This document shows positions 33,716 to 39,395 of a DNA stretch of 64,000 nt, in pieces. Under the pieces are notes generated by a model, which saw only the letters and a program-made list of their open reading frames with translations, was not told the origin of the DNA and made no database searches. The DNA comes from Idiomarina loihiensis (GTDB taxonomy: Bacteria > Pseudomonadota > Gammaproteobacteria > Enterobacterales > Alteromonadaceae). Each line of letters begins with the position of its first letter. Within the stretch, counting starts at the first letter, position 1. A program made the position numbers and the translations under genes. The DNA is taken from the NCBI RefSeq assembly GCF_024584785.1, contig NZ_CP074112.1, positions 372,001 to 436,000 of the forward strand, in the 5' to 3' direction.

Positions 33716-34750
33716 ATGGATATCACTGAGTTACTCAGCTTTGCTGTTAAACATAAATCGTCAGACTTACATTTGTCAGCAGAGTCACCTCCTATGATAC
33801 GGGTAGATGGTGACGTTCGTAAAATAAATATCCCGGCCTTATCGCACAAGCAAGTGCAAGAGCTGGTGTATGACATTATGAACGACCGCCAGCGTAAAGA
33901 GTACGAACAGAATCTAGAATGTGATTTCTCGTTTGAGGTACCGAGTCTGGCGCGCTTTCGGGTTAACGCATTTGTACAAAACCGTGGTGCTGGCGCCGTC
34001 TTTCGTACTATTCCTAGCGAGGTTCTCACACTGGAACAACTGGGTGCTCCAGAGATCTTTAAAACGATCTCCGATAACCCTCGTGGACTCGTGTTAGTGA
34101 CTGGGCCCACCGGTTCAGGTAAGTCTACGACGCTGGCGGCTATGGTGGATTACATTAATGAAAATAAATTTCATCACATTTTGACCATCGAAGATCCCAT
34201 CGAGTTTGTTCATAAGAACAAACGTAGCTTGGTTAACCAACGTGAAGTGCATCGCGACACCCACAGTTTTAACAACGCATTACGCTCGGCCCTGCGTGAA
34301 GACCCTGATGTGATTTTAGTGGGTGAGATGCGTGATTTAGAAACCATTCGGTTAGCCATGACAGCAGCTGAAACTGGACACTTAGTGTTTGGTACCTTGC
34401 ACACAACCTCGGCCCCAAAAACCATTGACCGGATTGTCGATGTGTTTCCGGGCGATGAGAAACCTATGATTCGCTCCATGTTATCTGAATCACTGCGCGC
34501 CGTGATTTCGCAAACCTTGCTGAAAAAGGTGGGGGGGGGGCGAGTTGCCGCTCATGAGATCATGATTGCGACATCTGCCATCAAGAACTTAATTCGCGAA
34601 GATAAAATTGCACAGATGTATTCGTCCATTCAAACGGGTGCTGCCCATGGCATGCAAACGCTTGACCAGTCGCTGCAAAACTTACTCAACCAAGGCACTG
34701 TAACCCGTGCTGACGCTAAAGCTAAAGCGAATCACAAGGATGCCTTCTAA
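33716..34750 (+). CDS. pilT: Type IV pilus retraction ATPase PilT
   Basis: PilT is the hexameric cytoplasmic ATPase that depolymerises type IV pili and so drives twitching motility and DNA uptake. The N-terminal PAS-like domain includes SSDLHLSAE. Walker A is GPTGSGKST (130-138), the Asp box has EDPIEFVH, Walker B is ILVGEMRD, and the His box has ETGHLVFGTLHT. The AIRNLIRE-equivalent retraction motif reads AIKNLIRE. The length of 344 aa is normal. Codons 272-275 (Val-Gly-Gly-Gly) are written GTG GGG GGG GGG, a run of ten G (separate entry). The stop overlaps the pilU ATG by 1 bp. Confidence 0.97.
   Translation: MDITELLSFAVKHKSSDLHLSAESPPMIRVDGDVRKINIPALSHKQVQELVYDIMNDRQRKEYEQNLECDFSFEVPSLARFRVNAFVQNRGAGAVFRTIPSEVLTLEQLGAPEIFKTISDNPRGLVLVTGPTGSGKSTTLAAMVDYINENKFHHILTIEDPIEFVHKNKRSLVNQREVHRDTHSFNNALRSALREDPDVILVGEMRDLETIRLAMTAAETGHLVFGTLHTTSAPKTIDRIVDVFPGDEKPMIRSMLSESLRAVISQTLLKKVGGGRVAAHEIMIATSAIKNLIREDKIAQMYSSIQTGAAHGMQTLDQSLQNLLNQGTVTRADAKAKANHKDAF
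34531..34540 (+). repeat. G10 homopolymer in the pilT reading frame
   Basis: Ten consecutive G occupy the third base of codon 272 and all of codons 273-275. The protein segment KKVGGGRVAAHE is conserved in PilT, but three GGG codons in a row are an unusual choice in a genome that mostly uses GGT and GGC. Gain or loss of one G would shift the frame and remove the last 70 residues, including the AIKNLIRE motif. Confidence 0.9.
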
Positions 34751-35865
34751 TGTCGGTGTTGGATAAGCTCTTAAAACTCATGGTGGAACGACAAAGTTCA
34801 GATTTGTTTATTTCGGCGGGGTTAGCTCCTAGTGCCAAAATTAATGGTGAGCTGCAGTCGTTAGCAGAACAGAAGTTGAGTGATAATGCGGCCTTAGCCA
34901 TCGTCAAAGAAGCTCTTGGGGAGGATCATTTAGAGCAATTTATTACCCATAAAGAAGCCAATTTCGCGATTTTCCGCGAAGGCATTGGCAGGTTTCGGGT
35001 GAGTGCATTCTGGCAACGCCAAAAAGCCGGCATGGTAGTACGCCGTATTGTTACCGAGATACCTACAGTAGAGCAGCTTAAACTTCCTAGTATTCTAACC
35101 CAACTCATTATGAGTAAGCGCGGTTTGTTGCTAGTGGTAGGGGGCACAGGTACCGGCAAGTCAACCAGTTTGGCGGCTTTGATTGGCTACCGCAACCAGC
35201 ATTCAAAGGGGCATATTCTGACCATTGAAGACCCCGTCGAATTTGTGCATGACCACGCTCAATGCATGGTCACACAGCGTGAGGTGGGGCAGGATACAGA
35301 ATCCTTTGAGGCAGCATTAAAAAGCTCGTTACGGCAAGCTCCCGATGTGATTCTAGTCGGGGAGATACGTTCTCAAGAGACTATGGAATACGCTTTAACC
35401 TTTGCTGAAACAGGTCATTTGTGTGTGGCTACGTTGCACGCTAACAATGCCAACCAAGCGATTGAGCGGATCATGCAACTGGTGCCGAAAGAGAAGATTC
35501 ACAAGCTCATGTTTGATTTATCGCTGAACCTACGTGGTATTGTGGCGCAACAGTTAGTTCCCACTACCGATGGGGGGCGTACTGCAGCCATTGAAATTCT
35601 ACTCAATAGTCCGATCATTGCGGAGAAGATAGCCACCGGTGACATGGGCGAGTTAAAGGAAATCATGGCGCGTTCGCGTGAATTAGGCATGCAAACTTTT
35701 GACCAAGCTCTTTATGATCTCTACAAGGCGGGCCGTATTACATACGATAATGCGATGCGTCATGCAGATGCACCAAATGACTTACGCTTGCGGATCAAAC
35801 TCAGTGGTGAAAATCACGGTGATGATGACAGTTCATTGAAGGGTGTTACCGTTGATCTAGACTGA
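34750..35865 (+). CDS. pilU: PilT-like ATPase PilU
   Basis: PilU is a second retraction ATPase that works with PilT and depends on it. It has SSDLFISAGLAP at the N-terminus, Walker A GGTGTGKST (about 133-141), EDPVEFVHD, ILVGEIRSQET and ETGHLCVATLHANN. The length is 371 aa, with the acidic C-terminal extension typical of PilU (HGDDDSS near the end). The gene overlaps pilT by 1 bp (TAATG), so a frameshift in pilT would also change the translational context of pilU. tsaD follows 63 bp later in the same direction. Confidence 0.95.
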   Translation: MSVLDKLLKLMVERQSSDLFISAGLAPSAKINGELQSLAEQKLSDNAALAIVKEALGEDHLEQFITHKEANFAIFREGIGRFRVSAFWQRQKAGMVVRRIVTEIPTVEQLKLPSILTQLIMSKRGLLLVVGGTGTGKSTSLAALIGYRNQHSKGHILTIEDPVEFVHDHAQCMVTQREVGQDTESFEAALKSSLRQAPDVILVGEIRSQETMEYALTFAETGHLCVATLHANNANQAIERIMQLVPKEKIHKLMFDLSLNLRGIVAQQLVPTTDGGRTAAIEILLNSPIIAEKIATGDMGELKEIMARSRELGMQTFDQALYDLYKAGRITYDNAMRHADAPNDLRLRIKLSGENHGDDDSSLKGVTVDLD

Positions 35866-38600: not shown

Positions 38601-39395
38601 GTGGATATTATTGAAGCTATTATTCTGGCCCTGGTTCAGGGGCTAACTGAATTTCTTCCGATTTCTAGTTCAGCGCACCTGATTTTGCCTTCGCAAGTTT
38701 TCGGTTGGCAAGATCAAGGTTTAGCCTTTGACGTTGCCGTGCATGTGGGAACCTTGCTGGCGGTCATCTTGTATTTTCGTCAAGAAGTAGGTCAGCTCCT
38801 GGTGGGCTGGGTAAATAGCATGCGTGGTCAACACAACGAACACAGCAGATTGGCGTGGTTAATTATTTGGGCCACTATTCCAGCTGGGTTGGCTGGCTTA
38901 CTGGGGGGGGATTTAATTGAGAACTTTGCCCGTTCAGCGCTCGTGATTGCCACCACCACTATCCTGTTTGGTTTACTGTTATGGTACGCCGATGTGAAAG
39001 CTAGCGAGCGCCAAGGGTTAGCCGGATTGACCTTGAAACAAGCTATTTTAGTTGGTTTGGCTCAAGCATTAGCGCTTATTCCAGGTACCTCACGTTCCGG
39101 TATAACCATGACCGCAGGTATGCTGATTGGCCTAACCAAAACCGATGCTGCGCGTTTTTCGTTTTTGTTATCCATTCCTGTCATTATTATGGCGGGTGGC
39201 TACCAAGGCTTGAAATTAGTGCAACAACCCGCAGCGGTTGATTGGTTAGCCGTATTGACCGGGGTCGGGGTATCTTTTGTCGCGGCTTATTTCTGTATCC
39301 ATTTCTTTTTACAGATCATTAGCCGTATGGGGATGCTGCCCTTTGTGCTTTACCGCCTAGCGTTGGGTATTATTTTGCTGCTATTTTTTATTTAA
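38601..39395 (+). CDS. uppP: Undecaprenyl-diphosphatase UppP (BacA)
   Basis: This integral membrane phosphatase recycles undecaprenyl diphosphate to the monophosphate carrier for peptidoglycan and other glycans; excess gives bacitracin resistance. The active-site block is [15 protein letters not shown] (glutamates and serines near residues 14-28), and the second block is [10 protein letters not shown]. There are about eight membrane segments in 264 aa. The start is GTG with AAGGAA upstream. A run of eight G (38903-38910) falls in the Leu-Gly-Gly-Asp codons. It converges on cca with 12 bp between stops. Confidence 0.96.

Follow-up and report, generated by a model that had tools for sequence, protein, structure and literature searches.

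The type IV pilus retraction gene pilT contains a run of ten consecutive G in the window (here, the whole stretch of 64 kb that was analysed; the genome is a single contig of 2,900,277 bases, and the window covers its positions 372001-436000). This tract is most probably a chance homopolymer, that is, a passive mutational warm spot and not an evolved phase-variation switch. The chance reading is favoured by the absence of the tract in the relatives examined, by a frequency of such runs close to chance, and by similar runs inside housekeeping genes. On/off switching through poly-G tracts is best known from host-adapted pathogens; Neisseria, for instance, has poly-G/poly-C contingency loci, pilC among them. 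A poly-G switch of pilT would allow a free-living marine bacterium to toggle pilus retraction, motility, DNA uptake and phage entry. The main lesson is however one of caution: a long G run is by itself no evidence of a switch, since G10 is present in 40 of 89 sampled genomes of the family, in some cases within housekeeping genes.

The tract, its gene and the outcome of a slip

The first-pass annotation had placed a G10 in the coding frame of the retraction ATPase gene, and the letters of the window confirm both the ten G and the intact frame (Table 1). No other single-base run in the window is as long. The tract is written GTG GGG GGG GGG CGA, its first G being position 3 of the Val codon, and it encodes a conserved Val-Gly-Gly-Gly. 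Among the glycine codons of the 49 ORFs of the window, GGT (43%) and GGC (35%) are favoured over GGG (11%) and GGA (10%). Because GGG is so little used, the tract cannot be put down to a constraint of the protein, as had also been proposed from the sequence: the amino acids do not require this spelling. The second-longest G or C run in the window is a G8 at 38903-38910, which lies 4.4 kb from the pilT tract, within an ORF (38601-39395) that is uppP-like by eye.

Table 1. Features of the pilT region, in positions of the window.
Feature	Position	Strand	Basis or description
pilT, type IV pilus retraction ATPase (344 aa, frame intact)	33716..34750	+	TIGR01420; alignment with 3jvu
G10 tract	34531..34540	+	Third base of GTG Val codon and three GGG Gly codons, PilT residues 272-275
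Stop TGA after a +1 or -2 slip	34555-34557	+	
Stop TGA after a -1 or +2 slip	34563-34565	+	
AIKNLIRE codons, residues 288-295	34577..34600	+	Translation, alignment with 3jvu; counterpart of PilT motif AIRNLIRE
pilU, second PilT/PilU family ATPase	34750..35865	+	TIGR01420, 412.5 bits

The assignment to PilT rests on a score of 518.1 bits against the PilT/PilU family TIGR01420 (cut-off 319.1), a full-length match, a conserved C-terminal motif and an adjoining pilU. Residues 1-340 align with the solved PilT 3jvu, AIKNLIRE included; according to PMC6762196, AIRNLIRE is a motif that PilT proteins conserve and PilU lacks. The protein shares with 3jvu, other solved PilT chains and TIGR01420 the full-length match, the conserved Gly-Gly-Gly-Arg and an AIRNLIRE-like motif; its one unusual feature is the choice of codons at Val-Gly-Gly-Gly. 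The pilT and pilU genes overlap by one base (TAATG, 34748-34752), yet pilU has its own AAGGA at 34736-34740, nine bases upstream of its start, and the effect of a pilT slip on pilU coupling is therefore uncertain. Elsewhere in the genome, a pilin-family match (genome positions 1960927-1961268) lies near a match to a PilT-like ATPase that begins at 1961992, and the bacterium therefore likely has pili on which a retraction motor could act.

Shifts of one or two bases in either direction were computed. In all four cases, native PilT would end at about residue 275 of 344, and a stop would be reached within the next 25 bases, giving products of 279-283 aa. After a one-base slip, the 69 C-terminal residues would be replaced, with AIKNLIRE among those lost, in line with the earlier estimate of a truncation by about 70 residues. 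Such a slip would likely abolish pilus retraction. In Pseudomonas aeruginosa, a pilT frameshift obtained under pilus-phage selection gave non-motile cells with recoverable pili (PMC13170266). A PilT-PilU fusion through a frameshift was also considered and is excluded, the four tried shifts stopping at 34557 or 34565, before pilU.

The tract site in relatives and the frequency of long runs

A full-length pilT match without stops is found in all 26 genomes of the genus. At the tract site, the longest G run is G6 or shorter, with mixed Gly codons, at each of the 25 other pilT loci of the genus and at each of 80 loci from named genomes, two sets that are not independent and probably have species in common. 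Most relatives keep the three glycines. The first-pass annotation had itself named mixed Gly codons and no tract in relatives, together with no length variation in culture, as speaking against a switch; the part on relatives is what was found, and it counts against the switch. Among named loci, the closest come from Pseudidiomarina and Idiomarina, with a protein identity of 95-97%, which points to Pseudidiomarina as the probable genus. The nearest relative shares only 81% of the bases of pilT, so the comparison with relatives leaves room for variation within the species.

In a class-wide sample, a match was obtained in 137 of 185 genomes, with 138 matches outside the present genome. The 109 strongest of these 138 were examined and 108 could be mapped, the remaining one (L198, a frame with a stop) being unmappable. 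One of the 108 mapped loci has a G9 (L224) and the others have G6 or less. GGG represents 45 of 317 Gly codons there, and at this usage the 108 loci should contain about 0.3 triple-GGG spellings; a single G9 is thus unremarkable. The G9 of L224 (G173) is an independent one, carried with an intact frame by an unrelated member of the class, whose pilT site reads GTC GGG GGG GGG CGA. Two other class pilT matches, G138:C22:24456-25487 and G166:C21:66418-67440, have one in-frame stop each (TAG and TAA, respectively).

Within the window, the tract is above chance; over the whole genome it is not. Four 8-G matches occur in the window for a shuffle mean of 0.58, and none of 100 shuffles reaches four. 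The all-G spelling of one Val-Gly-Gly-Gly has a probability of about 4.5e-4. When the window ORFs were redrawn synonymously, a G/C run of at least 10 appeared in 34 of 5000 redraws, with a mean of 0.0068 such coding runs per window, or 0.31 per 2.9 Mb, the window being one of about 45 in the genome. One coding run of at least 10 is observed in the genome for 0.31 expected, and about 10.3 coding runs of at least 8 are expected for 7 observed in total, coding and non-coding. These expectations apply the codon usage and protein content of this window to all genomes, which is a simplification.

In the genus, 9 of the 26 genomes contain runs of G10 or more, and 10 distinct runs were counted in all. 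Four of these runs are clearly coding, in PilT, a prepilin (PilW-like by eye), TilS and a RecB-like helicase/nuclease, and two are doubtfully so (the end of an RHS fragment and a 107-aa ORF). At the redraw rate, about 6.8 coding runs of at least 10 are expected over about 63.7 Mb (the sum of the rounded sizes of the 26 genomes), against 4-6 observed; coding G10 runs are thus no commoner in the genus than expected.

Outside the genus, a sample of 86 genomes of the family gave 58 distinct runs, of which 54 were fetched, leaving out four (G236:C38, G247:C110, G279:C665 and G282:C183). Of the 54, 41 lie in a frame of at least 120 aa and 13 in none. Thirty-nine of the 41 frames were scanned; L247, similar in appearance to L245, and the short L261 were set aside. 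Of the 39, 32 matched a Pfam family at 1e-5 or better, although such a match does not always place the run inside a true gene, some runs being at the start or end of the frame. By residue number, the run is well inside a thymidylate kinase (L287, residue 111 of 212), a dihydrofolate reductase (DHFR; L269, 113 of 180), a 2-oxoacid dehydrogenase acyltransferase (L273), a glutamate synthase (L270), a fatty-acid oxidation protein (L242), an ammonium transporter (L253), a TonB receptor (L241) and a PilY1-like protein (L256). In E. coli, tmk, folA and tilS are essential genes, and a run at such a place is therefore hard to read as a switch. In L272:1509-1518 (G261), an ABC_transp_aux family protein is split across two frames that meet at the G10 (profile positions 3-76, then 72-288), and this run has either slipped or been mis-assembled. 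L257 and L248 resemble this split-frame case.

A chance homopolymer weighed against a switch

On the chance reading, third-position choices at the conserved Val-Gly-Gly-Gly would have produced the G10 by chance in this species or strain. We infer that replication slippage at the tract would then yield rare, revertible PilT truncations, oftener than elsewhere in the gene, and that mismatch repair would hold this slippage down. The genome has one MutS match and one full MutL match, both above their cut-offs. The intragenic G:C repeats of Pseudomonas aeruginosa offer a parallel: they are long runs in ordinary genes and not evolved switches, and their insertions and deletions become more frequent as the run lengthens and when mismatch repair is lost (PMC3837008). 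The strongest effect there accompanies the loss of mismatch repair, whereas mutS and mutL are present here. Against the chance reading stand the 8-G matches of the window, more numerous than in any shuffle, and the improbability of the all-G spelling at any one site. Furthermore, a Bordetella study regarded any G/C run longer than 8 as a putative phase-variable locus, and a G10 lies in the coding sequence of bapC of Bordetella pertussis (PMC1891110); by this rule, the pilT G10 would also be a candidate.

The first-pass annotation had proposed phase-variable twitching motility. Its description of the tract, the frame, the unforced codons and the predicted outcome of a slip stands; the contingency locus itself is not supported, in view of the relatives, the near-chance rate and the runs in housekeeping genes. 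Such a selected locus, in which changes from G10 to G9 or G11 would toggle PilT and give twitching or non-retracting, pilus-phage-resistant cells, appears unlikely. The length of the tract, its in-frame position and the predicted truncation before AIKNLIRE argue for it, as do the pilus genes available for control and the phage-selected pilT frameshift of P. aeruginosa. As in Neisseria (pilC) and B. pertussis (bapC; PMC1891110), a G/C run of comparable length lies in the coding frame of a gene of the surface machinery, where a one-base change would truncate the product. In contrast with those loci, the pilT tract has no counterpart in the relatives examined, a comparison made at the species level, and the genome shows no excess of runs; moreover, the gene here encodes an internal motor ATPase. 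The absence of a genus-level excess of coding G10 runs, the mismatch repair genes and the similar runs inside housekeeping genes also weigh against selection. A literature search over titles and abstracts found no paper on a slippage tract in pilT and nothing on Pseudidiomarina twitching; for Idiomarina phase variation it gave only work on Clostridium flagella.

The tract might also have arisen by chance and now be in use, if episodes of selection, with pilus phages as one possible agent, pick PilT-off slips that later revert. The rise of G:C run mutability with length (PMC3837008) and the two frames of L272 meeting at a slipped or mis-assembled G10 in a relative are consistent with this scenario. 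It is nevertheless very unlikely, given that the 26 pilT frames of the genus are all intact and that no sign of slippage at pilT is seen in these assembled frames.

Another proposal is that pilus genes of this lineage repeatedly gain long in-frame G runs, the cases being pilT here, the prepilin gene of a sister species and, in another genus of the family, a PilY1-like gene. Slippage would then have come to control piliation independently in several species, with pilus phages perhaps as the selecting force. We consider it quite unlikely. Frames around five of the eight runs in sister genomes were scanned, four with a Pfam match, and, PilT included, five coding G10 runs of the genus could be identified, of which two are in pilus or prepilin genes, a point that also tells against the chance reading. 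Outside the genus, one of the 32 Pfam-matched runs is pilus-related, the PilY1-like L256. Pilus-related genes thus occur three times among the identified runs (PilT, prepilin, PilY1-like), a post hoc count from which no enrichment is claimed. The sister-species run (L233, G006:C1:145191-145200) is an in-frame G10 in a prepilin gene recognized by an N_methyl match; this match could also indicate a type II secretion pseudopilin.

Finally, the length of the tract might be an assembly or sequencing error, homopolymers being a weak point of some sequencing platforms. This is the least probable of the readings, since the G10 keeps both the frame and the three glycines of most relatives, whereas a miscount by one base would break both.

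Other long G or C runs of the genome

The genome is not rich in poly-G, with seven runs of G8 or longer in total. Three of these lie in coding or coding-like frames: those of pilT, of the uppP-like ORF (window position 38903, by eye) and of a glycosyltransferase-like frame (L114, by eye). Four have no convincing coding frame (L112, L113, L115 and L116), and the idea of a genome-wide poly-G repertoire was dismissed on these counts. G10 runs number two, the second being outside any ORF of at least 80 aa.

At L115:1948-1977 (G000:C1:1947947-1947976, outside the window), a C9 run is located within the 18-base spacer between TTGACA and TAAATT, hexamers that match the consensus at 10 of 12 positions and stand 77 bases before a 256-aa ORF. 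We take this to be the layout of promoter-spacer phase variation and, by layout, this C9 is a better slippage candidate than pilT. The 256-aa ORF has no Pfam or NCBIfam match. Homologues occur in 4 of the 25 other genomes of the genus, three of them having, by eye, a TTGAC-type hexamer at a similar place without the C run.

The other G10 of the genome, read as C10, lies in the stretch L112:2969-3050 (G000:C1, about 2262968-2263049), also outside the window. It abuts the first copy of an exactly repeated 16-base sequence, CCCCCACGAGCGTGGG, whose two copies are 61 bases apart. The pair resembles a two-repeat type I-E CRISPR remnant and is flanked by toxin-antitoxin genes of the AbiEi and AbiEii types.
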